Made by a program: the position numbers and the translations under genes. Positions 1 to 52,192 of a stretch of DNA of 64,000 bases are shown here, in pieces; position 1 is the first letter of the stretch, and the number at the start of each line of letters is the position of its first letter. This stretch comes from Nematopogon swammerdamellus (taxonomy: Eukaryota > Arthropoda > Insecta > Lepidoptera > Adelidae): the NCBI GenBank assembly GCA_946902875.1, contig OX336338.1, positions 7,307,971 through 7,371,970 on the forward strand, given 5' to 3'. The notes under the pieces were generated by a model. The model was not told the DNA's origin, made no database searches, and saw only the letters and a program-made list of their open reading frames with translations.

Positions 1-104
1 CATAATATGCTCACATGATTAACAGATGTTTACGATCAATATGTTAAGATGATGCAAGCACCGCTAAACGGTGACTTGTAATTAGTGCAGTTATAGTAAT
101 AGAA

Positions 105-880: not shown

Positions 881-957
881 CTCATTCCAAACCTACCCAA
901 ATACATCCTACTTAAAACCATCTTAATATTATAAACGCGAAAGTTTGTAAATGAGTT

Positions 958-1612
958 GCGTTCAGGAAGACGATAAACCTACTCAAAGAAAATAAGTAAC
1001 TAAGGGCGAGGCAGAAGGCCGAGCTGCGTTCAGGAAGTAGATAAACCTTCTTAAAGACAGTTAGTAACTGAGGGCGAGGCCGAAGGCCGAGCTGCGTTCG
1101 GGAAGACTATAAACCTTCTCGAAGAAAGTAAGTAATAAAGGGCGAGGCCGAGGGCCGAGCTGCGTTCAGGAAGACGATAAACTTTCTCGAAGACAGTAAG
1201 TAACTATGGGCGAGGCCGAAGGCCGATCTGCGTTCAGGAAGAGGATAAACCATCTTTAAGAAAGTAAGTAACCAAGGGCGAGGCCGAAGGCCGAGCTGCG
1301 TTCGGGAAGCCTAAACATTCTCGAAGAAAGTAAGTAATAAAGGGCGAGGCCGAGGGCCGAGCTGCGTTCAGGAAGACGATAAACTTTCTCGAAGACAGTA
1401 AGTAACTATGGGCGAGGCCGAAGGCCGATCTGCGTTCAGGAAGAGGATAAACCATCTTTAAGAAAGTAAGCAACAAAGGGCGAGGCCGAAGACCGAGCTG
1501 CGTTCAGGAAGAGGATAACCTTTTCGAAGAAAGTAAGTAACAGAGGGCGAGTCAGAAGATCGAGCTGCGTTCAGGAAGACTATAATCATCTCGAAGAAAG
1601 TAACTTCTTAGC
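958..1612 (+). repeat. 68-bp tandem array, first orientation
   Basis: About nine or ten units of roughly 68 bp. Each contains 'GGGCGAGGCCGAAGGCCGAG', 'CTGCGTTCAGGAAGA' and a segment like 'AAGAAAGTAAGTAAC'. Units differ by point changes (AAACCTTC/AAACTTTC, GAAGG/GAGGG). The array turns around near 1612-1625 and continues in the opposite orientation. Confidence 0.9.
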
Positions 1613-1624
1613 TACTTATTTCGA

Positions 1625-2735
1625 AAAAGAATTATCCTCTTCCTGAACGCATCTCGACCTTCGGCCTCGCCCATAGTTAAGTACTGTCTACGAGAAGGTT
1701 TATAGTCTTCTCGAACGCAGCTCGGCCTTCGGCCTCTCCCTTAGTTACTTACTGTTTACGAGAAGGTTTATAGTCTTCCCGAACGCAGCTCGGTCTTCGG
1801 CCTCGCCCTTTTTTAATTACTTTCTTAAAGATGGTTTATCCTCTTCATGAACGCAGCTCGGCCTTCGGCCTCTCTTATATACTTACTGTCTTCGAGAAAG
1901 TTTATCATCTTCCTGAACGCAGCTCGGCCTTCGGCCTCGCCCTTTGTTACTTACTTTCTTCGAGAAGGTTTATAGTCTTCCCGAACGCAGCTCGGCCTTC
2001 GGCCTCGCCCTCAGTTACCTACTTTCTTAAAGATGGTTTATCCTCTTCATGAACGCAGCTCGGCCTTCCGCCTCTCCCATATACTTACTGTCTTCGAGAA
2101 AGTTTATCATCTTCCTGAACGCAGCTCGGCCTTCGGCCTCGCCCTTTGTTACTTACTTTCTTCGAGAAGGTTTATAGTCTTCCCGAACGCAGCTCGGCCT
2201 TCGGCCTCGCCCTCAGTTACTTACGTTCTTAAAGATGGTTTATCCTCTTCCTGAACGCAGCTCGGCCCTCGGCCTCGCCCATAGTTACTTACTGTCTTCG
2301 GGAAAGTTTATCGTCTTCCTGAACACAGCTCGGCCTTCGGCCTCGCCCTTTGTTACTTACTTTCTTCGAGAAGGTTTATAGTCTTCCCGAACGCAGCTCG
2401 GCCTTCGGCCTGGCCCTCAGTTACTTACTTTCTTAAAGATGGTTTATCCTCTTCCTGAACGCAGCTCGGCCTTCGGCCTCGCCCTTGGTTACTTACTGTC
2501 TTCGGGAAGGTTTATAGTCTTCCCGAACGCAGCTCGGCCTTCGGCCTCGCCCTCAGTTACTTACTTTCTTAAAGATGGTTCATCGTCTTCCTGAGCGCCG
2601 CTCGGCCTTCGGCCTCGCCCATAGTTGCTTACTTTCTTCGAGAAAGTTTGTCGTCTTCCTGAACGCAGCTCGGCCTTCGGCCTCGCCCTTTGTTACTTAC
2701 TTTCTTCGAGTCGGTTTATCGTTTACCTGAACCCA
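1625..2735 (-). repeat. 68-bp tandem array, inverted half
   Basis: The same 68-bp unit as in 958-1612, here reverse-complemented, about 16 copies. 'GAACGCAGCTCGGCC' recurs at 1713, 1781, 1849, 1915, 1983 and 2051. Three-unit blocks of about 202 bp recur almost unchanged (1831-2032 against 2033-2234), so there is higher-order structure. The unit is open in one frame, which creates spurious ORFs. A lone unit lies at 54305-54385. Confidence 0.9.
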
Positions 2736-2879
2736 GCTTGCCCTTATGGACTATGGTACACATGTTAAAATTATAAAACAGTAAAACCTAAACAAACAAA
2801 ACATGTAAAACGGCTCTGCAAATAATTTATCACGAAGTTATATCCCCAAAATAATTAAAATAAAAAATAAGTTCAAAAA

Positions 2880-3280
2880 CTAAAACCCGACTACTGAAAA
2901 ATCACGCTCTAAAAAGTACGAAACAAGAAAATGTTCTCATCTGAAATTGTTATGTACAAACTATTCAATATTTTATCGTCTATTAAATAAACAACTTACA
3001 CGTAATATATTTTAATGTATTTAATAAATATTCATAGTGTTGTTCAGAGGATAGCCGTGGTCGTATGCCACCTAACCTATAGGGCAAAGTGGCATACGAC
3101 CATGGCTATCCTCTGAACAACACTATGAATATTTATTAAATACATTAAAATATATTACGTGTAAGTTGTTTATTTAATAGACGATAAAATATTGAATAGT
3201 TTGTACATAACAATTTCAGATGAGAACATTTTCTTGTTTCGTACTTTTTAGAGCGTGATTTTTCAGTAGTCGGGTTTTAG
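2880..3280. repeat. long near-perfect hairpin, 192-bp arms, 17-nt loop
   Basis: Bases 2880-3071 are the reverse complement of 3089-3280 with almost no mismatches. They are separated by a 17-nt loop (3072-3088, 'CTAACCTATAGGGCAAA'). Symmetry ends at 'AAAACTAAAACCCG' on the left. No coding sequence is evident. It may be a fold-back MITE or a hairpin-RNA locus; the sequence alone does not decide. Confidence 0.85.
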
Positions 3281-3436
3281 TTTTGTATATTGTAGTCAAT
3301 AGAACAGAAATTATTTATAGCGCACTATTAAGACACAGCAAAACCAATAATCGATTTTTCCCGATTAATGTTTCTCGTAAGCCACATTCATTCTGCACTT
3401 ATGATGTAAGTGCAGAATCAATAAATATTTAATTGT

Positions 3437-3600
3437 AGCCGTCGGGTGGCCGAGTGGTCTGGGCGTCGATTTCTCTTCCGAGAGGTTCGAGGTTCGCATC
3501 CAAAAGGCGTGTACCAATGAGTTTTTTCTGATTTGAAAAAATTTAAGTGCATACCTTCACCCACTGCTCCATGGTTCGAATTCCATGTAAAAATGTATCA
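3437..3600 (+). repeat. tRNA-derived SINE, 3'-truncated copy
   Basis: A tRNA-like head with an A-box-like 'GTGGCCGAGTGG' near 3446 and a B-box-like 'GGTTCGCATCC' near 3491, followed by the family tail 'GTGTACCAATGAGTTTTTTC'. The same head and tail occur in the full copy at 56896-57306. The 3' half of the element is missing. Confidence 0.75.
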
Positions 3601-4763
3601 CCTTTTTTGTTTTATTTTATTTTATTATTATAGCATTATGAATAGATAAAAAAAACAGATGTAAGCAGTATATTCTACTCTAACTATACCCGCAAAAAAC
3701 TGTACTACCCGCTGCCCTCTGCAGCACAGTCTACGGACTAGTGCAGGGGACAGTACATACATTGTGTTATATATATTATTGAATAAAGAAATATTTTACT
3801 TTTTACTTTTTTACTTTACTTTTAGGTCCACCGGGTTGACTGGAGGAAATTGCCTAAGCCAATAATGCCGCCCTTGCCATACATTAATTTGCATAAAAAT
3901 AATACACTTTATGCCACTTATAACAAAAATAAAATTAATATAAATACAAGTCTCTTGGACCATGGGCATGGCAACTAACACACATCGGTCACATTAAAAG
4001 CCTAAGAAGACTTCCTGGAATTCCGCTATTTATGGACGTTCAAGAGAAAGGTATGTACCTAATGTACGATGGGAACCAAAAAAATATACCTATTTCACAA
4101 TAATTGTAAAAATATTTAAGACGTAAATGTCGATCGTTTTTACTTGGTTTTTACCTTCAGCACCACACCCCAATATCGAGTCTCTGCTACTCTACATCAA
4201 GAACCCGACTCCGTTTTTAAAAATCGTACATAAAATGTTTCATAATTAGGTAAAAAGTTATCCCGAAATCGCCGCTCATTTGACGCGAGAACGATTATAA
4301 CTTCTCGTTATTAAGGTCACTCGTGCGCAACAGGCAACCTCAGACGCGCGCGTCAATCATAAAGGACGTAAGACGCGGTCGCGGCAGGCGCAATACATTC
4401 ATTAAATAAACCTGGCACGCATTTTGAGTGGATATTTTCGAGCATAGCTTAAAAAAAACTAAATTAATTTTTCCCAGGCCAAAAAAACGGGCATACTTTT
4501 TACGTCTCCTAAACAGGGGTGAAAAGATGAGACTGGAAGGCATCCCCAAATTAATTTTAAATATAATAAATTTTAATTCAGTTAGGAAAAAGTGATGCTA
4601 CCTATTAGCATCGCTCGAAAATGTCTGAAAAATGTAAGAGAGTGCGGGGTGGGAGCGTGCTATAACAGCGCGCTGATGGAGAGTAGTGGTGGTGGGTGGT
4701 GCGTGGTTGACGATGAAGGTGGCGCGGTGGTGGGTGGTGGGTGCCTGGTGCCGGGAGACTAAC
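3601..4763. other. no gene recognised
   Basis: AT-rich sequence. One AATAAAG followed by 'TTTTACTTTTTACTTTTTTA' near 3781-3815 looks like the 3' tail of a degraded retroelement. No supported coding sequence. Confidence 0.5.
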
Positions 4764-4882
4764 CTCTTGATCTTGGCTTTGAACCAGCCGAGGCAACCGT
4801 CGCAAGGGTCGGCCGCGTGTGCGGCGACGCGCGGCGGCGCGATGTTGATGATGGTGTAAACGATGATACATTGATAATCCAT
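4764..4882 (-). CDS. candidate first coding exon of an unidentified gene
   Basis: On the minus strand an ATG at 4882-4880 is preceded in frame by a TGA six codons upstream. It opens 39 codons that end at a consensus-like splice donor (AAGAG|GTTAGT, boundary at 4764/4763). The peptide starts MDYQCIIVYTIINIAPP and ends DPCDGCLGWFKAKIK. I do not recognise the family. It lies directly downstream, in its own transcription direction, of the GC-rich blocks at 4900-5130 and 5450-6110, as expected for a first coding exon near a promoter. No second exon is visible, so it would be leftward beyond 1 or in a short unrecognised exon. It also falls inside the inferred OGT intron on the same strand. A chance ORF with a chance donor remains possible. 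Confidence 0.35.
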
Positions 4883-4899
4883 AACACGAACATGTCCTC

Positions 4900-5130
4900 A
4901 GTACATATGTGGGAGGACTGAAACACTTCCAGGCGGACGCTCTCGGCGCGTCACCGCCGCCGCAGCCGCCGCCGCCGCCACCGCCGCCGGCGCCGACGAC
5001 GGTGACGTCGCCGCAGTCGCCGCGGCGCCGGCGCCGCAGCGGCGCGAGCTGCCAAGTGACGCGGTCCGCCGCCGCCGGTGCGGAGCGGAACACGCACGCC
5101 TCGGCCTTCCGCTCTGTCACACCACGTCTA
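4900..5130. promoter_or_regulatory. GC-rich, CGG-rich block
   Basis: Very GC- and CpG-rich with runs of CCG/GCC triplets (for example 'CGCCGCCGCAGCCGCCGCCG' near 4948). It gives long but low-complexity ORFs in several frames, which I do not call genes. It probably forms a promoter-proximal or 5'UTR region together with 5450-6110. Confidence 0.45.
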
Positions 5131-5449
5131 TATCCAGGCAAGTGGACACCACATTTCACACACCATGCGGAGAGGACGGCAATCATTCGCCCGGTCACTA
5201 TATTTACACTTAACTTCACTCCGACAAATGAACTGCGGCCAATTATTTAAAACTACCTACTCTTTGTAACGGTGACCCCGAATCGAAGTGTTTGGACACG
5301 GGGCACGAGCGAGAGAAATTCATTAACAATATGCGAACGCAACATCCGATCTTCAGTTCGACTCGTAACAATCAATGTCAACGGTAACCTTAATGTAAAT
5401 AAACATATTATTTTATCAAAAATGTATCAAAACAGAACGTCCATATGTT

Positions 5450-6110
5450 AAGCTCTGAGCGTGTAAGATGAATGTCTTATCGCCGGCGCCGCCGGATGCG
5501 ACGTCTAGCGTAGTTGTAGAGACGCATGTAATGTGCGCGGTGGGAATACGGTGCTACGTTATCAGCGAGGGCCGGGCTCCGCGTAGTGGACCGCAGCACG
5601 AGCGAGCGACGCGACACATGTCACTGTGACAAGTGGGATGCGGGCGACACCCGGCCGAGGGCGGCGCTCGCGTATTTACACTGACGGACGAAGGAGACGA
5701 GGCGCGCCGTGGTGAGCGTGGGCGGCGAGCTGGAGGAGGAGGTGCGGTGAGGACAGTGGCGGCGGCGGCGGCAGTCAGCGGCCAGCCCGCAGCCGGCCGG
5801 CTGCTTCAGTATCGATCTGCGTGCTAAGAGGAGAGAGGCGAGGCGGAGCCGGGCGAGGCATAGCGCGCGGCGGGCGGCGCGGGCGGGACGGGCGCGCGGC
5901 GGCGGAGCTGCGGGACAACTGCTACGCGGCGCGGCCTCGCGGTGTCCGCGCAGGGAGGCTGCTCGTCTCTGCCTGCCGCGCTCCCCCGCGCCCCGCACCG
6001 CGCCCACGCGACACAACACGACCGCAGCACCACCGTGCCCTCCGCCCGCCCTGAGCGCGCCGTGCCGCCCCGCGCCACGCACCGCGGACCCTCTCTTAAT
6101 GGCGCCCGTT
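5450..6110. promoter_or_regulatory. CpG-island-like block
   Basis: About 660 bp of strongly GC- and CpG-rich sequence in an otherwise AT-rich window, with stretches such as 'GGCGGCGGCGGCAGTCAGCG' near 5759. ORFs in both strands are Arg/Ala/Gly-rich and overlap each other, as expected for CpG-rich noncoding DNA. It is most simply read as a promoter or 5'UTR region for a leftward gene (see 4764-4882). A transcription start was not identified. Confidence 0.45.
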
Positions 6111-6129
6111 TATCAATCTTCCGACTTTA

Positions 6130-6805
6130 AACACTCCTCGAAATGAGGATGTAAATCATTCAGAATTACCGCCCATTTCCCGGTCGAACTATAACGCGCT
6201 CGTGCCACTCATAAGCACCGCCGAAGTCGCTTTATTGCTTGCTCTTTGCATATTAAACCTAGCACCTTGTCATCGCGTTGTGCGCTTATTCAACTAGCAA
6301 ACTGAAGATTTTCTCAGATTACAGATCATTGTACGCGACTATTGATGTGACGCGTGTATCGACCTAAACGAATGAATTATTGAGGTACCTACCTAACATT
6401 TACGTAAATTCTGTGCCCTGAAATATGCCTGAAAGAGATCCTTAAAATGATTTATCGACTCGGATACACTAGCTAGGTAATAACATCGAGCTATGATGAC
6501 GCACACGCTCCGCCGCTAGCGGATGGGGTGCTTTTTTCTCCATACTAGGTATATGTGAATTTGGGATCTGTTCTGTGTCCTCTTATTTCGATTAACACTT
6601 TTGGAACGTCTACAGACTATAAATAATAGGCTATAAGTTCTAACTAAATACTTCTATAAATATATATCCATACTTTTAGTTATACCGTATATTATATACA
6701 TTAAATCTATAAGGGATGCTCATGGAGTAAGTTACTTTGTTTTAAGAGATATTGCATTTGTAGACTTTATGTACGATACTAAAACTAAATTGACGATTTT
6801 TAGAA
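6130..6805. other. no feature recognised
   Basis: Unique-looking AT-rich sequence after the CpG-rich block. No coding potential or repeat family was recognised. Confidence 0.5.
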
Positions 6806-8290: not shown

Positions 8291-8486
8291 TATTTTATTT
8301 TATTTTATTTTATTTTATTTTATTTTATTTTATTTTATTATATTTTATTTTATTTTATTTTATTTTATTTTATTTTATTTTATTTTATTTTATTTTATTT
8401 TATTTTATTTTATTTTATTTTATTTTATTTTATTTTATTTTATTTTATTTTATTTTATTTTATTTTATTTTATTTTATTTTATTTT
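8291..8486 (+). repeat. (TATTT)n microsatellite, left flank of the giant palindrome
   Basis: About 39 TATTT units with one interruption near 8340. The same repeat, in the same strand orientation, resumes at 21245, immediately after the palindrome. This suggests that the palindrome was inserted into, or grew within, one microsatellite. The FYFILFYFIL ORFs here are microsatellite translations. Confidence 0.95.
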
Positions 8487-8489
8487 AGT

Positions 8490-8840
8490 AGTATACGTAG
8501 GGGGCTCCTAGCGCACCCTCGTGATTTTTCTAAGTCCGAGAATCAGGGGGCGTGGCCTAATTTGGGGTGTACGTAGGGCTTCGAAGTCAGGGTTCAGCTC
8601 CAGGGTGTCAGGTCAGGGTGCTGCGCCCCATCAATTTGGATGGTGTACGTAGGCCTTCGGAGTCAGGGTTCAGACCTTCGGATTCAGGATTCAGGCCTTA
8701 GGATTCAGGATTCAGGGTTCCAGATTCAGGGTTCAGGTCCAGGGTGCTAGGTCAGGGTGCTGCGCCCCATCCAATTGAGGCGTACGTAGGCCTTCGGAGT
8801 CATGGTTCAGCTCCAGGGTGCTGCACCCCACCAGCATGGT
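8490..8840 (+). repeat. subterminal iterated motifs of the palindrome
   Basis: The outer 350 bp of the arm contain several copies each of 'TACGTAGG(C/G)CTTCG(A/G)AG', 'GTCAGGGTTCAG' and 'CAGGGTGCTGCGCCCCATC'. The mirror set lies at 20891-21241, and related copies occur in the spacer at 14228-14456. Arrays of short subterminal repeats are typical transposase-binding regions in several DNA transposon groups (general knowledge). Any such role here is inference. Confidence 0.6.
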
Positions 8841-9228
8841 TCCACATGCACCGAGGCTTCGCCCCTGCCCCCTACCCCGCCCCGCCCCTGCCACACCCTT
8901 CGCCCCAGCCTTCACCCCTCCACAGTACCCCTGCCGACCGAGCGCAGGTAAATAGAGGTAGATAAACTAAGAGTGGTGCGTATTGTCTACCTGATAAGGG
9001 GTAGTTGATTCACCTCTATTGTCGGGAGGCAGGTTTAAACCTGTAGCAACCTGTAGGAACGACTGACTCCGCTTACGCATTGAATAGAAATATAACATTA
9101 ACAATTGTTCTGTGAAATGTATTCATACTCAGCATGACTAAGGCATCGTCAGTCAGGTAGGTTGGAGCCTAATGGTGTAGGAATGCAGACATGGCGCCGT
9201 CGCCGTCGGGCTTTGGCGGCGGGGAAGT

Positions 9229-9723
9229 TTGGCTGGTGCATTTAAAAATTCCGACACGCTCACTGTGACCGCAGTCGACAACGATGAACAGTCAGCCGCC
9301 AACATTACGCCGAGCTGCACGCCTGCGCCCACCGCTACAATGTCGCTAACGACTATCCACGTGCACACCTCGGGGCCGAGGCACGAGCGCTATTCGTCCG
9401 AGTCGGCACGTCTTCAAACATTCAACGATTAGCCACGCGCCCTCCGGCAGAAGCCTGAAGAAATGGTTAAGGCTGGGTTTTTCTACACTGGTTTTGGTGA
9501 CAAAGTGGCGTGCTTTTACTGCGGAGGAACACTCAACCAGTGGCGACCGGAAGACACACCGTGGGAGGAGCACACGAGGCTAGACCGCTGCGCTTTCGTC
9601 TACATAATGAAGGGAGCTGACTTCGCCACAGTCAAAGCAAAAGGATTGGACGAGATCGACATTCCGAGCTATTCGCCATACTTGTATGCGCCATCAGACG
9701 ATGGAGCCTTTAACTTGAAATGA
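9229..9723 (+). pseudogene. BIR-domain (IAP-like) pseudogene, left arm
   Basis: One reading frame spans this interval with a single internal stop, TAG at 9430-9432. Downstream of it the sequence reads as the core of a baculoviral-IAP-repeat domain: AGFFYTGFGDKVACFYCGG, then DTPWEEH, then a final Cys. The zinc ligands C-x2-C-x16-H are present, but the last spacing is H-x5-C where the family usually has six. The segment just upstream (RHERYSSESARLQTF) fits the start of a BIR. The TAG stands where BIR domains carry a conserved Trp after the 'TF' motif. No RING domain follows; the frame ends at 9721-9723, with AATAAA at 9733-9738. The upstream ATG (9191) is in another frame, so the true start is unknown. 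BIR proteins inhibit caspases in insects and insect viruses; host or viral ancestry cannot be decided here. Confidence 0.7.
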
Positions 9724-10144
9724 TTAATTTTCAATAAATATTTTTACATTTAAACAGTGAATACATTTATTTCAACCCACCCACACCCATAAATGAAACA
9801 AAAGTTAGCAGAAATGTTTATTTATTTTCACAAATCTTAATGCTAAAGTGTACATGATATATGTTTTAGAAAAGTCACTTAAACCCATTATTTACATAAA
9901 TGGGGCAACCTAAGTTTCGTCAGCAAATATTTATTTCTTGGTCAGGTCTATGTTGTTTTAAAGATGATGATGATGGCGTGGTAGATAGGTTAGAAATCAG
10001 CTTGCTGTCGCGCTGGTTAATGGTGATATGTATGATGGCCCATTACCTCTGAGAAAAAATTGTATTGGATGTTGTCAGAATATTTAAATTTTTCATGACA
10101 TATTTTATTATTTAATTTACGTACAAAGTGGAAATCTTATACTC

Positions 10145-10561
10145 TTAATCTATTTGTATAACATTTTGCTGCGCATCTAAAATTTGCGTAACGATATTGG
10201 CTATAGCGGAGATTATCCTTCGCTCATATTGGTTTAGCTCTGGGGTCTGCTGCACAATGCCTAACGTTGGCGATTGATGCTGCTGAGTGATCCAATCTGA
10301 AGATTGCAATGTGCACACGTTTGATGTTGGATCTTGCTTGTGCGATGTCAGCGGTGATGGCGGCTGCTGTTGATGTGTAGGCGAATAGTATGCAGATGAG
10401 TGTCGCGGTGGAGATGTCGCTGGTAGAGGTGGCGATGGTGAATAATTCATCAGGGTATACGTAGGTGAGCCGTAGGTGGGTGAGTATCGCGTTGGATATA
10501 TCGTTGGTGGAGATGTAGGTGGTGAATTAAGCAGCGGTGAGTCTTGCGCAAGCGAACCCAC
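10145..10561 (-). CDS. Ser/Pro/Tyr-rich hypothetical protein, left arm
   Basis: About 138 codons on the minus strand. The N-terminal two thirds is low complexity, rich in S, P, Y and T with degenerate SPPT/YSPT units. The last 45 residues are of normal composition and probably helical (ELNQYERRIISAIANIVTQI). The first codon of the open stretch is GTG and no ATG lies between it and the upstream in-frame TAA. Either translation starts at an internal Met or this is a 3' exon entered by splicing; a 'CTAATAC...CATAAG' stretch upstream could be a branch point and acceptor. An antisense AATAAA lies at 10104-10109. I do not recognise the protein. An identical copy is in the right arm, and a truncated, slightly diverged third copy lies at the edge of the spacer. 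Confidence 0.45.
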   Translation of the reverse strand: MGSLAQDSPLLNSPPTSPPTIYPTRYSPTYGSPTYTLMNYSPSPPLPATSPPRHSSAYYSPTHQQQPPSPLTSHKQDPTSNVCTLQSSDWITQQHQSPTLGIVQQTPELNQYERRIISAIANIVTQILDAQQNVIQID

Positions 10562-10980
10562 CCAACTTATGAGTGGTGGTGCGGAAATGTATTAGGACAG
10601 TGTTTTTCAAACTGTGGATAGCGAAGCCAGTGCTAGGTCAGGGTGCAGCGCCCCACCAGCGTGGTTCCACTGGCACCGAGGCTTCGCCCCTTCCCCCTAC
10701 CCCGCCCCGCCCCTGCCACCCCCCTCCGCCAGTCAGGTAGGTTGGAGCCTAATGGTGTAGGAATGCAGACATGGCTGACTCAATATCTTTGGAATTTTAC
10801 CTGTAGAGACGTGACGTAATGAAGTACCACTCCAACCTATCGTCCTGTGAGTTACACCGAGTCGAGATCGAGGAGGTGAAAGCTCATGCCACTCGGAGTG
10901 CGAGTTGGACTCGCACTTGGTCGGGAAACTGGCTCGGTTGACTATATCAACTACAACCTACAGTTATACGTTTATCCTAC

Positions 10981-11297
10981 AGTTGGTGAAAGCTGCAAGT
11001 TGAAATCAAACTTATTACAATGGCTCAAGGTACATTATTTATGTTTGATTCCTGCCTACGTGCCGGAGTACCTAGCGTGTTAATACTTGCTTACAGTGTG
11101 ACTCATTTAGGGATGAACAATTAGAAATTGTGGTGTGAAGGGTGGTTGGTGAAAGCTGCAAGTTGAAATCAAACTTATTACATTGGCTCAAGGTACATTA
11201 TTTATGTTTGATTCCTGCCTACGTGCCGGAGTACCTAGCGTGTTAATACTTGCTTACAGTGTGACTCATTTAGGGATGAACAATTAGAAATTGTGAA
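10981..11297 (+). repeat. direct duplication of about 150 bp, left arm
   Basis: The block running from 'GGTGAAAGCTGCAAGTTGAA' to 'GGGATGAACAATTAGAAATT' occurs at about 10985-11136 and again at 11150-11297 with one or two changes. Mirror copies lie at 18434-18750. Confidence 0.85.
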
Positions 11298-11781
11298 CTG
11301 GGGTTGACAAAAGAGCTCATTAGTGGTAGATACCAAGGGATCGCTCACAGGCAACGCAGATTGAGACTTGTTGAAATATACCAATTGTTGTGGAGATATT
11401 TTTAAATGTAAAATTTTCTTAGTGCAACTATTGTGAAAGATAACTGATGTCTGGGGTTGAACAAAAGAGCTCATTACTGAAAGGTATCAGCGGGTCGCTC
11501 ACAGGTGACGCAGCGCAGGTTGAGACTTGCAGAAACATGAAAATGTTTGGTGAAATTATTTAAAAGTAATATCGCGCTGTGATAAAGTGTAGGTAAGTCG
11601 ACCCTTCCCACAACAGCCATTATTAAAGATAATAGACGTCTTTGGGGGTTGAACAAAAGAGCTCTGTACTGTAAAAACCAACGGGTCCATCTCGTTCGAC
11701 GCAGATTGAGACTTGTAGAAACATGAAAATGTTTGACAAATTTTTAAAGTAAAATATTTTTTAGTATATACTTTTTCCACA
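11298..11781 (+). repeat. three diverged tandem repeats upstream of the 101-codon gene
   Basis: Three units beginning 'GGGGTTGA(A)CAAAAGAGCTC' at 11300, 11454 and 11644, spaced 154 and 190 bp. Each carries 'GATTGAGACTTG' or 'GTTGAGACTTG' and (in two) 'AAACATGAAAATGTTTG', a short palindrome. They lie just upstream of the promoter at 11828. Short ORFs on the opposite strand are by-products of the repeats. Mirror copies are at 17950-18433. Confidence 0.75.
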
Positions 11782-11827
11782 TCATCATGTGAGGGGGTGG
11801 GGGTTATTTATCTATATAGCTCATGTT

Positions 11828-11862
11828 TATAAGACTGAGCGCACAATTTTAGTAAAACAGTT
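11828..11862 (+). promoter_or_regulatory. TATA box and CAGT initiator
   Basis: TATAAG at 11828-11833 is followed 31 bp later by ACAGTT (CAGT at 11858-11861). This matches the insect RNA polymerase II TATA plus CAGT initiator arrangement, also used by early genes of insect DNA viruses (general knowledge). It would give a 5'UTR of about 100 nt before the ATG at 11958. Confidence 0.5.
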
Positions 11863-11957
11863 CGATCGCAGCAGCACGCCGACTTGTATTTCTACACACC
11901 ACGGTGAGCTGATTTCTAAATATCGACCACACCAGCATCATCTTCACACCAACCATC

Positions 11958-12263
11958 ATGGACCTAACCAAGATCAACGAAGCGGGCAAGCGAGCCTTCC
12001 TGGAGACGCGGAAACTCGCCATCTTGGAGATTGGAAAACTCTACCGAGTGACCGACTTGCGCAAAGTTGCAACCAAATACGGAGATCGCATTGTAGCTGA
12101 CATCGATGCGACTTTCTGCGTCTTCCTACCCAAGCGGATGATCGACGCCTTCAACAAGGATGGGAAGATGTTCGAAGATATGGTTGAAGCTAGCAGAGAA
12201 AACATGCTTGGGCTGAAATACCTTGGTGGGACGTATAATGCTATCGAGTTCGATAGTATGTAA
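11958..12263 (+). CDS. 101-codon hypothetical protein, possible OB-fold, left arm
   Basis: A complete small gene: TATA and initiator at 11828-11862, ATG 11958 in good context (ACCATCATGG), a non-repetitive reading frame to TAA 12261-12263, and AATAAA at 12322-12327. The protein is charged and globular in composition. Its middle (YRVTDLRKVATKYGDRIVAD, then FCVFLPKRM) has the pattern of alternating strands with a short loop seen in small OB-fold nucleic-acid-binding proteins. That is an impression from pattern, not a database match. The family is not recognised. Conservation of an intact frame in both arms, beside a broken BIR gene, suggests that it was the last gene under selection or that the arms are very young. 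Confidence 0.6.
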   Translation: MDLTKINEAGKRAFLETRKLAILEIGKLYRVTDLRKVATKYGDRIVADIDATFCVFLPKRMIDAFNKDGKMFEDMVEASRENMLGLKYLGGTYNAIEFDSM

Positions 12264-12720
12264 GAAGAGGGCGTGGAAATGTATGTGGAATACCAACGTT
12301 TTAGCTGTACGATTTTACAGAAATAAAATTTTTTGTCTAATATATGTACTGTGTATTAAGGAAAATAACCTTATGTAATAAAGCTTATAATTGAACAATA
12401 TTTTTTAATTTTCATACCCAACCGCACTAGATAATACCAAGGTATATAGTTATTAGTTTCTTAGTAAGAAACTCTAACAATTTTGTGAATCATCAAAATG
12501 TATTTCACTAAGGTTGGAAACAAAAGATTAAAAATTGTGCAAATTCTTTTCATAGCTTCAGCCCACAACTTTACCTGCGCACATGTAGGTACTTCTGGCA
12601 TGAGGGGGCTGCTTCTAGATTAGGAAAGGTGGGTTGACGCTTGAGTTTAAATAATATTATTTCGAGGCATCATTTAAAATTGAAACGTCGTGCAAGCAAG
12701 TTCTCAAAGAAATCAACATC

Positions 12721-12870
12721 ATGGGAGTGACCGCTAAATGGCGAATTAACAGCACCGCGCAAGTGCAGGGGGCCATCGTGCGGCACAACAGTGGAAAATT
12801 CAATGATGGCGAGCTGTATCGCTGTATTCAGCTAACCTATTCTTCAGGTGAGATATATTTGTCATTATAA
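12721..12870 (+). CDS. 49-codon ORF ending over a splice donor, left arm
   Basis: The open frame runs from just after a TAA at 12652. The first ATG is at 12721 and the stop at 12868-12870. The peptide (MGVTAKWRINSTAQVQGAIV and following, with a Cys and charged residues) has normal composition. The sequence TCTTCAG|GTGAGA at 12841-12852 is a good splice donor, so this may be an exon rather than a complete gene. No acceptor partner or homologue was recognised. The mirror is 16861-17010. Confidence 0.35.
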   Translation: MGVTAKWRINSTAQVQGAIVRHNSGKFNDGELYRCIQLTYSSGEIYLSL

Positions 12871-12960
12871 TATATATTTTATACATACCACTTTTTTTAC
12901 AGAATCACAATGTTTACTCGATGTGAGCCTATTATACCTTATCACTATTTGATCATTGTC

Positions 12961-13200
12961 AGCCTCGGTAGCTCAGTGGTGTGTCAACAGCTGTAAAGCA
13001 ACCCTGGGTGCGGATAGTGCTGAGATGGGTGATTGATCACTCATCCGTTGGAGGCTGACCGTGGTTCGGATCCTACGTTAAACTGTAGGATAAACGTATA
13101 ACTGTAGGTTGTAGTTGATATAGTCAACCGAGCCAGTTTCCCGACCAAGTGCGAATCCAACTCGCACACCGAGGGTTCCGTATCACCATATCATGGTCAG
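12961..13200 (+). repeat. tRNA-headed SINE-like element, left arm
   Basis: 'GCCTCGGTAGCTCAGTGGTG' has the form of a tRNA 5' half with an A box, and 'GTGGTTCGGATCC' near 13060 that of a B box. The distance between them is longer than in a real tRNA. It is followed by the 'CAAGTGCGAATCCAACTCGC' motif and 'GGTTCCGTATCACC'. It is a dispersed host repeat lying inside the palindrome arm. The mirror is 16531-16770. Confidence 0.6.
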
Positions 13201-14219
13201 CACCACTCACGCCATTAGTTATAATGCTTCATACACTACTATTTTGGCACCTATATTTATTATTAAGACCTATACTCAGGGCATTGAGGTGTACCAATGG
13301 GTTAAAAAAAAAAGCTGAAATCGGCACTCTTGTTAGCACAAAAGGGCCATTGACGATTTAAAAAAAAAATTATGTTTTGTCGTTTTATGTATCTCTTTTC
13401 TAATTTTATTTATTGCTGCGTTGTATTTAGTTATATTATTTTATTGTGTTGTTACTTTTTGTATTATTCTGTTTTTGCTATCCTTTGTGTTATTATAAGG
13501 TATTATTTTAAAGTTGTTATTTATAGTGTTAGTCATTTGTTTGTTTATTGATAGAAAAAGGTTCTGTGCTTATGTTAGGTTAGCACCATTGTTACATTAT
13601 CATATCTACCTAAGGGTAGACCGGGCAGGATCTACCTGAGATGGGGCCTGGCGGCGAAGCTTTACAAGCGCAATTGTTCAGCCGGAAGCCGGAGCCGGTG
13701 GGGTAGCACGTTAAATTTATTAACATTTTATTAGGTAATAATTACTCCAATTAACTACTCTATTAAACTGATATGAAACTTAGGCGGTAATATTTCTAAA
13801 AATTATTTTGATTGCTCCAATTAAAACAAGAATTACATTTATTGAAGTTTTATTAGGTACCTATTAATTATCCCCATTAACCTGATAAGACCCTTAGCCT
13901 ACAGAAAACGTTCAACGAGCCAACATTTCCGAGAGTTGGTGGATGACTCAAGATTCGGGAAGCATGATACCGGATTCGGGAATCATGAATTGGAGCCCAG
14001 GAGGTGGCAAGGGTGGCGGAGCGGGGGTAGCGGGGGTGGGGTGGCACGCTAAATTAATATTTTTTTTTTATTAGGTATTAATTACCCCAATTAACTACTC
14101 TATTAAACTGATATGAAGCTTAGGCGGTAACATTTCTAAAAAATATTTTAATTACTCCAATTAAAACGATAATTACATTTATTGACGTTTTATTAGGTAT
14201 TAATTACCCCAATTAACTG
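13201..14219. other. inner part of left arm, AT-rich, no gene
   Basis: Two related blocks ('ATTTATTGA(A/C)GTTTTATTAG' with 'CAATTAACTACTCTATTAAA') repeat at about 13725-13875 and 14050-14219. They are joined by a G-rich stretch at 14000-14045. No supported reading frame: the Leu-rich ORF at 13149-13361 lacks any protein-like features. Confidence 0.6.
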
Positions 14220-15510
14220 ACAAATTGATGGGGCGCAGCACCTTGACCTGGCACCCTGGAGCTGAACCCTGACTCCGATCGGGCGGCAGGGATACTGCGG
14301 AGGGGTGAAGGCTGGGGCGGAGGGGGGGGGGGGGGGGGGGGGGGGGGTGGCAGGGGCGGGGCGGGGTAGGGGGAAGGGGCGAAGCCTCGGTGCCAGTGGA
14401 ACCACGCTGGTGGTGGGGCGCAGCACCCTGACCTAGCACCCTGGACCTGAACCCTGCGGAAATGTTGGCTCGTTGAACGTTTTCTGTAGGCTAAGGGTCT
14501 TATCAGGTTAATGGGGATAATTAATAGGTACCTAATAAAACTTCAATAAATGTAATTCTTGTTTTAATTGGAGCAATCAAAATAATTTTTAGAAATATTA
14601 CCGCCTAAGTTTCATATCAGTTTAATAGAGTAGTTAATTGGAGTAATTATTACCTAATAAAATGTTATCAGGTGGAAGCGAAGAGGAACTTTAGAGGCCG
14701 CCGTGCAAGTCGGGAGCACAAATCCTCGATGGGGTTTTATGATAATGTACCTTGAGCCATTGTAATAAGTTTGATTTCAACTTGCAGCTTTCACCAACTG
14801 TAGGATAAACGTATAACTGTAGGTTGTAGTTGATATAGTCAACCGAGCCAGTTTCCCGACTAAGTGCGAGTCCAACTCGCACACCGAGTGGCATGAGCTT
14901 TCACCTCCTCGATCTCGACTCGGTGTAACTCACAGGACGATAGGTTGGAGTGGTACTTCATTACGTCACGTCTCTAAAGGTAAAATTCCAAAGATATTGA
15001 GTCAGCCATGTCTGCATTCCTACACCATTAGGCTCCAACCTACCTGACTGGCGGAGGGGGGTGGCAGGGGCGGGGCGGGGTAGGGGGAAGGGGCGAAGCC
15101 TCGGTGCCAGTGGAACCACGCTGGTGGAGCGCAGCACCCTGACCTAGCACTGGCTTCGCTATCCACAGTTTGAAAAACACTGTCCTAATACATTTCCGCA
15201 CCACCACTCATAAGTTGGGTGGGTTCGCTTGCGCAAGACTCACCGCTGCTTAATTCACCACCTACATCTCCACCAACGATATATCCAACGCGATACTCAC
15301 CCACCTACGGCTCACCTACGTATACCCTGATGAATTATTCACCATCGCCACCTCTACCAGCGACATCTCCACCGCGACACTCATCTGCATACTATTCGCC
15401 TACACATCAACAGCAGCCGCCATCACCGCTGACATCGCACAAGCAAGATCCAACATTAAACGTGTGCACATTGCAATCTTCAGATTGGATCACTCAGCAG
15501 CATCAATCGC
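14220..15510. other. asymmetric spacer of the giant palindrome
   Basis: The spacer is a mosaic. Bases 14228-14456 resemble the subterminal motifs, with a G run at 14323-14348. Bases 14457-14667 copy 15800-16010 of the right arm (offset 1343). Bases 14668-14741 are of no seen origin. Bases 14742-15513 copy 18693-19464 (offset 3951), joining the arm at the shared 'CCA' (15511-15513). The copies carry scattered differences from the arm (for example at 14862 and 15455), more than the arms show between themselves. Confidence 0.85.
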
Positions 15511-15530
15511 CAGTTAATTGGGGTAATTAA
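15219..15530 (+). pseudogene. truncated third copy of the Ser/Pro/Tyr-rich ORF
   Basis: The first 97 codons match the ORF at 19170-19586 with one visible residue change (L for S near residue 82). The copy then breaks at the spacer/arm junction and runs a few codons into arm sequence (VNWGN) before a stop. The helical C-terminal part is lost. Confidence 0.75.
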
Positions 15531-16530
15531 TACCTAATAAAACGTCAATAAATGTAATTATCGTTTTAATTGGAGTAATTAAAATATTTTTTAGAAATGT
15601 TACCGCCTAAGCTTCATATCAGTTTAATAGAGTAGTTAATTGGGGTAATTAATACCTAATAAAAAAAAAATTATTAATTTAGCGTGCCACCCCACCCCCG
15701 CTACCCCCGCTCCGCCACCCTCGCCACCTCCTGGGCTCCAATTCATGATTCCCGAATCCGGTATCATGCTTCCCGAATCTTGAGTCATCCACCAACTCTC
15801 GGAAATGTTGGCTCGTTGAACGTTTTCTGTAGGCTAAGGGTCTTATCAGGTTAATGGGGATAATTAATAGGTACCTAATAAAACTTCAATAAATGTAATT
15901 CTTGTTTTAATTGGAGCAATCAAAATAATTTTTAGAAATATTACCGCCTAAGTTTCATATCAGTTTAATAGAGTAGTTAATTGGAGTAATTATTACCTAA
16001 TAAAATGTTAATAAATTTAACGTGCTACCCCACCGGCTCCGGCTTCCGGCTGAACAATTGCGCTTGTAAAGCTTCGCCGCCAGGCCCCATCTCAGGTAGA
16101 TCCTGCCCGGTCTACCCTTAGGTAGATATGATAATGTAACAATGGTGCTAACCTAACATAAGCACAGAACCTTTTTCTATCAATAAACAAACAAATGACT
16201 AACACTATAAATAACAACTTTAAAATAATACCTTATAATAACACAAAGGATAGCAAAAACAGAATAATACAAAAAGTAACAACACAATAAAATAATATAA
16301 CTAAATACAACGCAGCAATAAATAAAATTAGAAAAGAGATACATAAAACGACAAAACATAATTTTTTTTTTAAATCGTCAATGGCCCTTTTGTGCTAACA
16401 AGAGTGCCGATTTCAGCTTTTTTTTTTAACCCATTGGTACACCTCAATGCCCTGAGTATAGGTCTTAATAATAAATATAGGTGCCAAAATAGTAGTGTAT
16501 GAAGCATTATAACTAATGGCGTGAGTGGTG

Positions 16531-16770
16531 CTGACCATGATATGGTGATACGGAACCCTCGGTGTGCGAGTTGGATTCGCACTTGGTCGGGAAACTGGCT
16601 CGGTTGACTATATCAACTACAACCTACAGTTATACGTTTATCCTACAGTTTAACGTAGGATCCGAACCACGGTCAGCCTCCAACGGATGAGTGATCAATC
16701 ACCCATCTCAGCACTATCCGCACCCAGGGTTGCTTTACAGCTGTTGACACACCACTGAGCTACCGAGGCT
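16531..16770 (-). repeat. tRNA-headed SINE-like element, right arm
   Basis: Mirror of 12961-13200. The B-box-like sequence appears as 'GGATCCGAACCAC' near 16659 and the A-box-like head ends near 16770. Confidence 0.6.
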
Positions 16771-16860
16771 GACAATGATCAAATAGTGATAAGGTATAAT
16801 AGGCTCACATCGAGTAAACATTGTGATTCTGTAAAAAAAGTGGTATGTATAAAATATATA

Positions 16861-17010
16861 TTATAATGACAAATATATCTCACCTGAAGAATAGGTTAGC
16901 TGAATACAGCGATACAGCTCGCCATCATTGAATTTTCCACTGTTGTGCCGCACGATGGCCCCCTGCACTTGCGCGGTGCTGTTAATTCGCCATTTAGCGG
17001 TCACTCCCAT
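16861..17010 (-). CDS. 49-codon ORF ending over a splice donor, right arm
   Basis: Mirror of 12721-12870: ATG at 17010, stop at 16861-16863, with the same GTGAGA donor inside its 3' end. Function not recognised. Confidence 0.35.
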   Translation of the reverse strand: MGVTAKWRINSTAQVQGAIVRHNSGKFNDGELYRCIQLTYSSGEIYLSL

Positions 17011-17467
17011 GATGTTGATTTCTTTGAGAACTTGCTTGCACGACGTTTCAATTTTAAATGATGCCTCGAAATAATATTATTTAAACTCAAGCGTCAACCC
17101 ACCTTTCCTAATCTAGAAGCAGCCCCCTCATGCCAGAAGTACCTACATGTGCGCAGGTAAAGTTGTGGGCTGAAGCTATGAAAAGAATTCGCACAATTTT
17201 TAATCTTTTGTTTCCAACCTTAGTGAAATACATTTTGATGATTCACAAAATTGTTAGAGTTTCTTACTAAGAAACTAATAACTATATACCTTGGTATTAT
17301 CTAGTGCGGTTGGGTATGAAAATTAAAAAATATTGTTCAATTATAAGCTTTATTACATAAGGTTATTTTCCTTAATACACAGTACATATATTAGACAAAA
17401 AATTTTATTTCTGTAAAATCGTACAGCTAAAACGTTGGTATTCCACATACATTTCCACGCCCTCTTC

Positions 17468-17773
17468 TTACATACTATCGAACTCGATAGCATTATACGT
17501 CCCACCAAGGTATTTCAGCCCAAGCATGTTTTCTCTGCTAGCTTCAACCATATCTTCGAACATCTTCCCATCCTTGTTGAAGGCGTCGATCATCCGCTTG
17601 GGTAGGAAGACGCAGAAAGTCGCATCGATGTCAGCTACAATGCGATCTCCGTATTTGGTTGCAACTTTGCGCAAGTCGGTCACTCGGTAGAGTTTTCCAA
17701 TCTCCAAGATGGCGAGTTTCCGCGTCTCCAGGAAGGCTCGCTTGCCCGCTTCGTTGATCTTGGTTAGGTCCAT
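17468..17773 (-). CDS. 101-codon hypothetical protein, possible OB-fold, right arm
   Basis: Exact mirror of 11958-12263, encoding the same protein. Its TATA box (17898-17903), CAGT initiator (about 17870) and poly(A) signal (17404-17409) mirror those of the left copy. The two copies are transcribed towards each other, that is, towards the palindrome centre. Confidence 0.6.
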   Translation of the reverse strand: MDLTKINEAGKRAFLETRKLAILEIGKLYRVTDLRKVATKYGDRIVADIDATFCVFLPKRMIDAFNKDGKMFEDMVEASRENMLGLKYLGGTYNAIEFDSM

Positions 17774-17949
17774 GATGGTTGGTGTGAAGATGATGCTGGT
17801 GTGGTCGATATTTAGAAATCAGCTCACCGTGGTGTGTAGAAATACAAGTCGGCGTGCTGCTGCGATCGAACTGTTTTACTAAAATTGTGCGCTCAGTCTT
17901 ATAAACATGAGCTATATAGATAAATAACCCCCACCCCCTCACATGATGA

Positions 17950-18750
17950 TGTGGAAAAAGTATATACTAAAAAATATTTTACTTTAAAAATTTGTCAAAC
18001 ATTTTCATGTTTCTACAAGTCTCAATCTGCGTCGAACGAGATGGACCCGTTGGTTTTTACAGTACAGAGCTCTTTTGTTCAACCCCCAAAGACGTCTATT
18101 ATCTTTAATAATGGCTGTTGTGGGAAGGGTCGACTTACCTACACTTTATCACAGCGCGATATTACTTTTAAATAATTTCACCAAACATTTTCATGTTTCT
18201 GCAAGTCTCAACCTGCGCTGCGTCACCTGTGAGCGACCCGCTGATACCTTCCAGTAATGAGCTCTTTTGTTCAACCCCAGACATCAGTTATCTTTCACAA
18301 TAGTTGCACTAAGAAAATTTTACATTTAAAAATATCTCCACAACAATTGGTATATTTCAACAAGTCTCAATCTGCGTTGCCTGTGAGCGATCCCTTGGTA
18401 TCTACCACTAATGAGCTCTTTTGTCAACCCCAGTTCACAATTTCTAATTGTTCATCCCTAAATGAGTCACACTGTAAGCAAGTATTAACACGCTAGGTAC
18501 TCCGGCACGTAGGCAGGAATCAAACATAAATAATGTACCTTGAGCCAATGTAATAAGTTTGATTTCAACTTGCAGCTTTCACCAACCACCCTTCACACCA
18601 CAATTTCTAATTGTTCATCCCTAAATGAGTCACACTGTAAGCAAGTATTAACACGCTAGGTACTCCGGCACGTAGGCAGGAATCAAACATAAATAATGTA
18701 CCTTGAGCCATTGTAATAAGTTTGATTTCAACTTGCAGCTTTCACCAACT
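17950..18750 (-). repeat. upstream tandem and direct repeats, right arm
   Basis: Mirror of 10981-11781: the three 'AAAAGAGCTC' units and the 150-bp direct duplication. The only difference seen in this part is at 18251. Confidence 0.75.
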
Positions 18751-19169
18751 GTAGGATAAACGTATAACTGTAGGTTGTAGTTGATATAGTCAACCGAGCC
18801 AGTTTCCCGACCAAGTGCGAGTCCAACTCGCACTCCGAGTGGCATGAGCTTTCACCTCCTCGATCTCGACTCGGTGTAACTCACAGGACGATAGGTTGGA
18901 GTGGTACTTCATTACGTCACGTCTCTACAGGTAAAATTCCAAAGATATTGAGTCAGCCATGTCTGCATTCCTACACCATTAGGCTCCAACCTACCTGACT
19001 GGCGGAGGGGGGTGGCAGGGGCGGGGCGGGGTAGGGGGAAGGGGCGAAGCCTCGGTGCCAGTGGAACCACGCTGGTGGGGCGCTGCACCCTGACCTAGCA
19101 CTGGCTTCGCTATCCACAGTTTGAAAAACACTGTCCTAATACATTTCCGCACCACCACTCATAAGTTGG

Positions 19170-19586
19170 GTGGGTTCGCTTGCGCAAGACTCACCGCTGC
19201 TTAATTCACCACCTACATCTCCACCAACGATATATCCAACGCGATACTCACCCACCTACGGCTCACCTACGTATACCCTGATGAATTATTCACCATCGCC
19301 ACCTCTACCAGCGACATCTCCACCGCGACACTCATCTGCATACTATTCGCCTACACATCAACAGCAGCCGCCATCACCGCTGACATCGCACAAGCAAGAT
19401 CCAACATCAAACGTGTGCACATTGCAATCTTCAGATTGGATCACTCAGCAGCATCAATCGCCAACGTTAGGCATTGTGCAGCAGACCCCAGAGCTAAACC
19501 AATATGAGCGAAGGATAATCTCCGCTATAGCCAATATCGTTACGCAAATTTTAGATGCGCAGCAAAATGTTATACAAATAGATTAA
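19170..19586 (+). CDS. Ser/Pro/Tyr-rich hypothetical protein, right arm
   Basis: Mirror of 10145-10561 with an identical 138-residue reading. The same problem with the start applies: a GTG opens the frame with no ATG upstream. Here it is transcribed rightward, away from the palindrome centre. Confidence 0.45.
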   Translation: MGSLAQDSPLLNSPPTSPPTIYPTRYSPTYGSPTYTLMNYSPSPPLPATSPPRHSSAYYSPTHQQQPPSPLTSHKQDPTSNVCTLQSSDWITQQHQSPTLGIVQQTPELNQYERRIISAIANIVTQILDAQQNVIQID

Positions 19587-20007
19587 GAGTATAAGATTTC
19601 CACTTTGTACGTAAATTAAATAATAAAATATGTCATGAAAAATTTAAATATTCTGACAACATCCAATACAATTTTTTCTCAGAGGTAATGGGCCATCATA
19701 CATATCACCATTAACCAGCGCGACAGCAAGCTGATTTCTAACCTATCTACCACGCCATCATCATCATCTTTAAAACAACATAGACCTGACCAAGAAATAA
19801 ATATTTGCTGACGAAACTTAGGTTGCCCCATTTATGTAAATAATGGGTTTAAGTGACTTTTCTAAAACATATATCATGTACACTTTAGCATTAAGATTTG
19901 TGAAAATAAATAAACATTTCTGCTAACTTTTGTTTCATTTATGGGTGTGGGTGGGTTGAAATAAATGTATTCACTGTTTAAATGTAAAAATATTTATTGA
20001 AAATTAA

Positions 20008-20502
20008 TCATTTCAAGTTAAAGGCTCCATCGTCTGATGGCGCATACAAGTATGGCGAATAGCTCGGAATGTCGATCTCGTCCAATCCTTTTGCTTTGAC
20101 TGTGGCGAAGTCAGCTCCCTTCATTATGTAGACGAAAGCGCAGCGGTCTAGCCTCGTGTGCTCCTCCCACGGTGTGTCTTCCGGTCGCCACTGGTTGAGT
20201 GTTCCTCCGCAGTAAAAGCACGCCACTTTGTCACCAAAACCAGTGTAGAAAAACCCAGCCTTAACCATTTCTTCAGGCTTCTGCCGGAGGGCGCGTGGCT
20301 AATCGTTGAATGTTTGAAGACGTGCCGACTCGGACGAATAGCGCTCGTGCCTCGGCCCCGAGGTGTGCACGTGGATAGTCGTTAGCGACATTGTAGCGGT
20401 GGGCGCAGGCGTGCAGCTCGGCGTAATGTTGGCGGCTGACTGTTCATCGTTGTCGACTGCGGTCACAGTGAGCGTGTCGGAATTTTTAAATGCACCAGCC
20501 AA
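20008..20502 (-). pseudogene. BIR-domain (IAP-like) pseudogene, right arm
   Basis: Mirror of 9229-9723, including the in-frame TAG (complement at 20299-20301) at the conserved Trp position and the H-x5-C spacing. The lesion is therefore older than the arm duplication, or was spread by conversion between the arms. Confidence 0.7.
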
Positions 20503-21244
20503 ACTTCCCCGCCGCCAAAGCCCGACGGCGACGGCGCCATGTCTGCATTCCTACACCATTAGGCTCCAACCTACCTGACTGACGATGCCTTAGTCATGCT
20601 GAGTATGAATACATTTCACAGAACAATTGTTAATGTTATATTTCTATTCAATGCGTAAGCGGAGTCAGTCGTTCCTACAGGTTGCTACAGGTTTAAACCT
20701 GCCTCCCGACAATAGAGGTGAATCAACTACCCCTTATCAGGTAGACAATACGCACCACTCTTAGTTTATCTACCTCTATTTACCTGCGCTCGGTCGGCAG
20801 GGGTACTGTGGAGGGGTGAAGGCTGGGGCGAAGGGTGTGGCAGGGGCGGGGCGGGGTAGGGGGCAGGGGCGAAGCCTCGGTGCATGTGGAACCATGCTGG
20901 TGGGGTGCAGCACCCTGGAGCTGAACCATGACTCCGAAGGCCTACGTACGCCTCAATTGGATGGGGCGCAGCACCCTGACCTAGCACCCTGGACCTGAAC
21001 CCTGAATCTGGAACCCTGAATCCTGAATCCTAAGGCCTGAATCCTGAATCCGAAGGTCTGAACCCTGACTCCGAAGGCCTACGTACACCATCCAAATTGA
21101 TGGGGCGCAGCACCCTGACCTGACACCCTGGAGCTGAACCCTGACTTCGAAGCCCTACGTACACCCCAAATTAGGCCACGCCCCCTGATTCTCGGACTTA
21201 GAAAAATCACGAGGGTGCGCTAGGAGCCCCCTACGTATACTACT

Positions 21245-21335
21245 TATTTTATTTTATTTTATTTTATTTTATTTTATTTTATTTTATTTTATTTTATTTT
21301 ATTTTATTTTATTTTATTTTATTTTATTTTATTTT
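21245..21335 (+). repeat. (TATTT)n microsatellite, right flank of the palindrome
   Basis: About 18 units in the same orientation as the tract at 8291-8486, starting directly at the outer end of the right arm. Confidence 0.95.
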
Positions 21336-52160: not shown

Positions 52161-52192
52161 GGCGAAGATCCCCGCGAAACTATTAGGTAGCT

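Follow-up and report, generated by a model that had tools for sequence, protein, structure and literature searches.

A 12.76-kb palindrome in the genome of Nematopogon swammerdamellus and its probable origin from a Polinton

The palindrome at the window locus

The 64,000-bp stretch of the lepidopteran Nematopogon swammerdamellus analysed here (GenBank assembly GCA_946902875.1, contig OX336338.1, positions 7,307,971 to 7,371,970, forward strand), which we call the window, carries a 12.76-kb near-perfect palindrome that begins at position 8487 with AGTAGT and ends at 21244 with ACTACT. The initial annotation had described such a palindrome, and direct comparison of both arms reproduced that description exactly: arms of 5733 and 5734 bp, which differ by the three substitutions it had named and by one 1-bp indel. 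The (TATTT)n microsatellite was likewise found to continue in one orientation on both flanks (8291–8487 and 21244–21335). The genome searched comprises 699 Mb in 39 contigs, given C numbers below; the window lies on C34, and positions marked rel are counted from 8487. The features of the locus are as follows.

8481–8486, plus strand: putative 6-bp target-site duplication, left, TATTTT, inside (TATTT)n
8487–14219, plus strand: left arm, 5733 bp
8487–8518, plus strand: 32-bp terminus, which three PolB-bearing elements (two on C4, one on C31) carry unchanged at both their ends
8487–9942 (rel 1–1456), plus strand: parental Polinton left end, 97–99% identical to five PolB-bearing copies, in one of them as two pieces
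9463–9723, plus strand: BIR-domain frame, 86 amino acids (aa)
10087–13088, plus strand: accessory region, colinear for the most part with a locus on C3 (11.07 Mb)
11958–12263, plus strand: 101-aa gene, with eight homologues at 37–52% identity
13579–14217 (rel 5093–5731), plus strand: parental right sub-terminal region, 93–96% in five PolB-bearing copies
13721–13937, plus strand: 218-bp inverted repeat, first half, the fold point in the C30, C4 and C21 copies
14220–15510, no strand: asymmetric spacer, 1291 bp
14221–14456, plus strand: spacer pieces from the parental right terminal repeat, 82–100% identity
14450–14667, minus strand: 218-bp inverted repeat, other half, in the spacer, 99.1% identical to 13721–13937
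14741/14742: junction J2, a boundary in the spacer
14742–15510, minus strand: inverted copy of left-arm 10270–11038, 763 of 769 positions identical, beginning at J2
15493–15520, minus strand: junction J1 between spacer and right arm (28 bp; boundary 15510/15511)
15511–21244, minus strand: right arm, 5734 bp
17468–17773, minus strand: second copy of the 101-aa gene
20008–20268, minus strand: second copy of the BIR frame
21245–21250, plus strand: putative 6-bp target-site duplication, right, TATTTT

The substituted site pairs are 11480/18251, 12541/17190 and 14009/15722, at each of which the left arm has A and the right arm, read in the same direction, has G; the indel (14060/15671) lies within a T run. 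All other sister-copy arms that were read have G at the three sites, and the substitutions are therefore private changes of the left arm of the window. All three are G-to-A, and two of them stand in a CpG context. The right arm of the window is the same, without a difference, as both arms of the copy on C11. At an insect mutation rate of 2.9e-9 per site per generation, the two window arms would have had separate histories for about 90,000 generations, a rough, order-of-magnitude figure from three events. Each arm also contains a 163-bp tandem duplication (10982–11295), which is apparently single copy at the C3 11.07 Mb locus.

The spacer, already called complex in the initial annotation, owes its complexity to being mostly rearranged element sequence, with inverted copies of 10270–11038 and 13721–13937. 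Going inward from the left arm, the centre passes through pieces of the right terminal repeat, an inverted copy of rel 5451–5235, 74 bp that were not assigned, J2, an inverted copy of about rel 2552–1783, and J1, where the right arm begins.

Polinton sequence in the arms and the PolB-bearing relatives

An excerpted account of vertebrate Mavericks (PMC8097293) gives the end motif (AGT)2//(ACT)2 and 6-bp duplications as their features, and the ends of the window element carry this Polinton/Maverick motif. The initial annotation had left the element unidentified; it can now be assigned as a Polinton/Maverick derivative whose ends are common to copies in the same genome that bear the polymerase PolB. 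Descent from such copies is indicated by identities of 97–99% over the outermost 1456 bp, 93–96% over about 638 bp of sub-terminal sequence and 98% over about 930 bp in the accessory region. Comparison of the arm with the C3 11.07 Mb locus, where a PolB match lies 5.2 kb from the 101-aa gene, gave 98% identity over 10087–10582 and 10982–11568 (rel 1601–2096 and 2496–3082) and 76–81% in pieces of 11700–13088 (rel 3214–4602), the order being conserved save for one piece of 67 bp; a further 88 bp near rel 1450 match this locus in reverse orientation. In the spacer, rel 5735–5970 consists of pieces of the right terminal repeat of PolB-bearing copies. Because the arm is made up of the left end, the accessory region and the right sub-terminal region of PolB-bearing loci, the most plausible reading is that it is a Polinton with an internal deletion; in the palindrome, an inverted second left end would have taken the place of the right end of that deleted element. 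Foreign DNA was considered as the source of the middle of the arm, which five PolB-bearing copies lack apart from short terminal-repeat pieces, and was rejected because this sequence is present at C3 11.07 Mb.

We found no match to PF03175 (PolB) at the window locus, and at least 72 matches in the genome among the 91 of 178 candidates that were scored, many of them with frames open over 1275 codons. The window element is therefore a non-autonomous Polinton derivative and not an autonomous member. Among 18 distinct listed frames of at least 60 aa in the left arm and spacer, BIR alone was above the Pfam cut-off, and neither an integrase nor a double-jelly-roll capsid was matched. The BIR frame equals, residue for residue, the C-terminal 86 residues of a 164-residue BIR protein from a PolB-bearing copy, the N-terminal part lying outside the frame. 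Ten helper frames were also used in tblastn (capsid, integrase, ATPase, both PolB pieces, a phospholipase-like protein, three unnamed frames, and BIR), all of which were recovered in the helper control; the nine other than BIR had no match in the window element and 21 sister-locus pieces. The 101-aa protein is predicted, from weak matches, to have an OB-like fold, the match lists including many unrelated OB-fold proteins, and nothing significant was found for it in PHROGs or among PDB sequences. Scans of viral contigs with this protein and with the capsid protein of a PolB-bearing copy detected no relatives.

Of the PolB-bearing copies, one on C20 encodes BIR, a double-jelly-roll capsid, a phospholipase-like protein, an integrase with a sub-threshold chromodomain match, an A32-like ATPase and PolB. 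The closest named relatives of its capsid protein (L027:1731-2957), among the best 120 of 1881 matches, are from wasps and sawflies (55–63%), a similarity for which parasitoid-host passage is a possible explanation.

A search of the genome for the terminus had been proposed in the initial annotation. When it was run with a 414-bp terminus, all 40 candidates scored (of 348) were matches, so that there are at least 40; counts of this kind are lower bounds, as they are for PolB and for another genome search in which 40 of 4231 candidates were scored. The exact 32-bp tip occurs in two versions at no fewer than 80 ends (40 forward and 40 reverse were listed). The second version is found on nine more PolB-bearing elements and on other palindromic copies, and two gene-pair elements, both on C10, have one tip of each version. 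The 80 listed tips form 39 inward pairs of element size and leave two ends unpaired. PolB without the 101-aa gene is enclosed by 12 of the 39 pairs, an inward-facing pair of 101-aa genes without PolB by 25, and same-strand copies of the 101-aa gene without PolB by two (C1 and C12); among the tips listed, no pair encloses both PolB and the 101-aa gene, and none encloses neither. The listed elements with these tips thus divide cleanly into possible helpers and relatives that lack the polymerase. The ends are shared with candidate helpers in the same genome, as would be the case for helper-dependent satellites, 12 PolB-bearing elements being present among the 39 listed pairs. Because the tips are shared, the palindrome family likely consists of satellites that multiply by means of proteins borrowed from Polintons.

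Sister palindromes: centres, flanks and arms

The search for the 101-aa gene gave 119 matches after all 123 candidates had been scored, and these fall into 61 clusters. Genes on both strands are present in 47 clusters, every one of them inward-facing and with its first and last gene 4.2–9.3 kb apart; no outward-facing pair was present among the 61. By gene orientation, the duplicated end is therefore the left end. At none of the 47 loci do the paired genes enclose a PolB match, with the PolB candidates scored as above. The other 14 clusters comprise the same-strand copies on C1 and C12, near-identical single genes at C9 2.20 Mb and C15 11.73 Mb, and ten distant or partial clusters, two of which (C3 11.07 Mb and C16 15.67 Mb) are at most 12 kb from a PolB match. 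At C22:20967994-20978881 a PolB match stops 3.7 kb before a mirrored pair, an arrangement that would fit insertion of a palindrome within or next to a PolB-bearing element. Seven loci (C34, C11, C13, two on C10, C25 and C30) were covered over the full or nearly full length of both arms, of which C10 7.07 Mb has a patchwork left side and C25 an insertion of about 1.2 kb.

The centre of the window palindrome is shared by copies on C29 and C6, and the 28-bp sequence of J1 was found without mismatch at 17 places in 16 loci, the reversed control giving none. The identity of J1 at 16 loci shows that one palindrome form has multiplied. An overlap of 11 bp at J1 was considered and rejected, the sequence there having 2 bp of microhomology. 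Other centres were found as well, at least four types among those read. The C30 copy runs from rel 1 to 6181, passes through the inverted repeat to rel 5234 and returns to rel 1, which is what a strand would make if its 3′ part paired with its own upstream repeat and were extended to the end. The C4 and C21 centres differ and use the same 218-bp inverted repeat. In these copies one terminus is duplicated in inverted orientation around a short loop, as expected of a snap-back product, with all 47 pairs inward-facing and the C30 geometry in agreement.

The TATTTT pair that flanks the window element fits a 6-bp target-site duplication; alone it is weak evidence, because a repeat of period 5 gives a chance match about one time in five. 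Identical 6-bp flanks, the duplication length of Polintons, were present at 12 of the 17 palindrome-family loci read: the window and 12.69 Mb on C34, C12 12.54 Mb, C30, C1 2.96 Mb, C25, C3 26.89 Mb, C6 7.79 Mb, C10 7.07 Mb, C29, and two on C19. In the PolB-bearing copies the 6-bp duplication was perfect at 12 of 13 read and one base off in the thirteenth. Flanks that do not match are AAAAGG/AGTCAG at C11 15.16 Mb and GCACGC/TTCCAT at C10 20.97 Mb; on C13 the left flank is TTCCAT, and the right is C followed by masked bases. The right flank of the C10 copy (C10:20969181-20981937) is thus the same as the left flank of the C13 copy (C13:322241-334993), which may reflect inter-chromosomal exchange or an assembly mis-join. 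Two neighbouring palindromes on C2 (C2:16966460-16994642) stand around 2.04 kb of other DNA; TTAATA is the outer flank of both, and the inner segment reads AAGATT...AAAGATTAG, the arrangement that would be expected if recombination between copies had integrated a 2-kb circle, opened at AAGATT.

We compared arms within and between copies over a piece of about 2512 bp. Within copies, the arms differ at 3 sites in C10 20.97 Mb, 2 in C10 7.07 Mb, 0 in C11, 5 in C13, 2 in C34 and 0 in C6 (mean 2.0), and arms of different copies differ at a mean of 5.3 sites; random pairings of the arms of these six copies were as tight as the within-copy arms in 259 of 20,000 trials. The C6 arms are identical to each other, share two changes private to both of them, and stand 7–11 sites from the other five copies. 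Since C6 and the others share J1, the palindrome predates the C6 differences and its arms were homogenised afterwards. At sites 3623, 4054, 4761 and 4983, both C10 7.07 Mb arms are of one type and both arms of C11 and of C34 are of another; three of these sites differ between the two arms of C13. On average, then, the arms evolve in concert, and assembly smoothing could mimic part of their homogeneity.

Elsewhere in the window, 68-bp-unit tandem arrays at 953–1603 and 1632–2745 are reverse complements of each other that meet head to head and form another palindromic arrangement, 6 kb away from the palindrome described above, and 2876–3284 is a spacerless 409-bp near-perfect palindrome (97.6%), possibly fold-back or like a miniature inverted-repeat transposable element (MITE). 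A DDE_3 transposase frame lies at 48807–49574, reverse transcriptase fragments at 52187–53533 and 57271–58056, a reverse transcriptase in the window being closest to named moth and butterfly proteins, and 303-bp tandem arrays at 58708–62113 within a larger direct duplication of about 1.7 kb.

Origin of the palindromes and comparison with known systems

The current view is that Polintons use protein priming and strand displacement for their replication. Non-autonomous Polintons that are not palindromic are already known. We consider it probable, at roughly 75%, that the palindrome is a PolB-less Polinton derivative that arose from a displaced strand which folded back and served as its own template up to the 5′ end, and that it is replicated and integrated, as we predict, by Polintons with the same tips. 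Internal deletion would first have removed the capsid, integrase and polymerase genes. A strand displaced in protein-primed synthesis could then have paired at the 218-bp inverted repeat near the right end, and its extension to the left terminus would have swapped the right end for a second left end. Later template jumps at J1 and J2 may have created the present spacer, after which the integrase of a helper would insert the molecule with a 6-bp duplication. The arms would be re-homogenised in each cycle, because each strand of a palindrome is self-complementary, or by conversion in the chromosome. If fold-back copying took place in the course of protein-primed strand displacement, this would account for three features: duplication of one end alone, a fold point in an inverted repeat, and the identity of the arms. 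The giant fold-back element suggested in the initial annotation was right in spirit: it appears to be Polinton-derived, with one terminus duplicated in inverted orientation.

Several observations weigh against this origin. J1 has only 2 bp of microhomology (with ATTGATG shared nearby) and J2 none that is clear; the J1 and J2 steps were therefore not themselves hairpin-primed. Five of the 17 family loci (C11, C10 20.97 Mb, C13 and the two C2 neighbours) have no matching duplication, and at C22 20.97 Mb a PolB match lies 5 kb out from the first gene of the mirrored pair. The genome-wide absence of PolB from the palindromes is based on scoring about half of the candidates (91 of 178). Only inner parts were read at C6 and C29 and only centres at C4 19.85 Mb and C21 8.28 Mb, the other pairs resting on gene positions. 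The permutation result is modest (about 1.3%, six copies only), and the left arm of C10 20.97 Mb equals that of C13, whose own arms differ by 5. Both snap-back formation and mobilisation in trans are steps that we infer, and recombination between copies could yield the same geometry.

That last process, in which palindromes of the same element would come from recombination between two inverted copies (a dimer, or ectopic crossover at an inverted repeat), is an unlikely explanation that still deserves weight. It would accommodate the same-strand tandem blocks on C12 and C1, and the flanks common to C10 20.97 Mb and C13 and to the C2 neighbours indicate that copies recombine or have been mis-joined. 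However, the fold point in the C30, C4 and C21 centres is an inverted repeat inside one element, and all 47 pairs point inward with the left end outward, whereas recombination between random copies might give right-end palindromes too.

An assembly artefact, through fold-back reads or collapsed repeats, had also been raised in the initial annotation. Arms so similar are hard to assemble, and some joins may be wrong on C10, C11 and C13, where flanks are unmatched and two copies have a flank in common; as a general explanation it is very unlikely, because the mirrored pair recurs at 47 loci with at least four centre types, and 12 of 17 perfect 6-bp duplications and arm-specific differences also stand against it. 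An ordinary inverted duplication in the chromosome whose arms gene conversion keeps alike, also proposed there, can practically be dismissed: the uniformity holds on average, the window arms being 99.9% alike and within-copy arms closer to each other than to those of other copies, but both arms stop exactly at the element terminus, most loci read have the 6-bp duplication, and sister copies occupy many sites.

If the fold-back origin is correct, palindromic satellites with mapped fold points and arm markers would be a sequence record of Polinton replication. Such a record could be used to ask what happens to a displaced strand, at which end the origin is stronger, and whether an endogenous virus is restrained by defective genomes. 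The copies also suggest that an animal genome can transmit and multiply palindromes of about 13 kb whose arms are almost identical. More tentatively, and as a conjecture we rate as doubtful, insects may carry inherited defective-interfering genomes: self-complementary Polinton satellites with two of the stronger (left) origins, which would out-replicate the helper and re-copy one arm from the other in each cycle and which, if transcribed across the centre, would give a hairpin RNA that matches the left end and sub-terminal region of the helper, holding the endogenous virus in check.

Among known systems, the palindromes resemble Polinton/Maverick (adintovirus-like) elements in their (AGT)2//(ACT)2 ends, in their 6-bp duplications at 12 of 17 loci and in arm parts common to PolB-bearing loci. 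They differ from them as palindromes without a match to PolB, integrase or capsid, and in having inverted arms of 5.7 kb, whereas the PolB-bearing copies have terminal repeats of about 0.7 kb that are 82–94% alike. In Foldback (FB) elements and long-arm MITEs, inverted repeats likewise make up most of the element; here, by contrast, Polinton sequence with genes makes up the arms, the ends are those of Polintons, and the duplications are 6 bp long. Symmetric-ended defective adenovirus genomes are protein-primed linear DNA with one end duplicated. They are products of passage, unlike the mobile family in a host genome described here. Palindromic Polintons were not described in the titles and abstract openings of the literature matches listed, a search outside which subscription papers and Repbase lay; further background was taken from excerpts of PMC6431247 and PMC4028283. 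The nearest printed analogue that we found is in an excerpted account of the snapback defective genomes of adeno-associated virus (PMC8235507), which are self-complementary, with one genome end duplicated in inverted orientation, and depend on replication proteins supplied by others. Those genomes belong to a parvovirus and are found in particles, whereas the palindromes of N. swammerdamellus are inherited chromosomal copies with target-site duplications.

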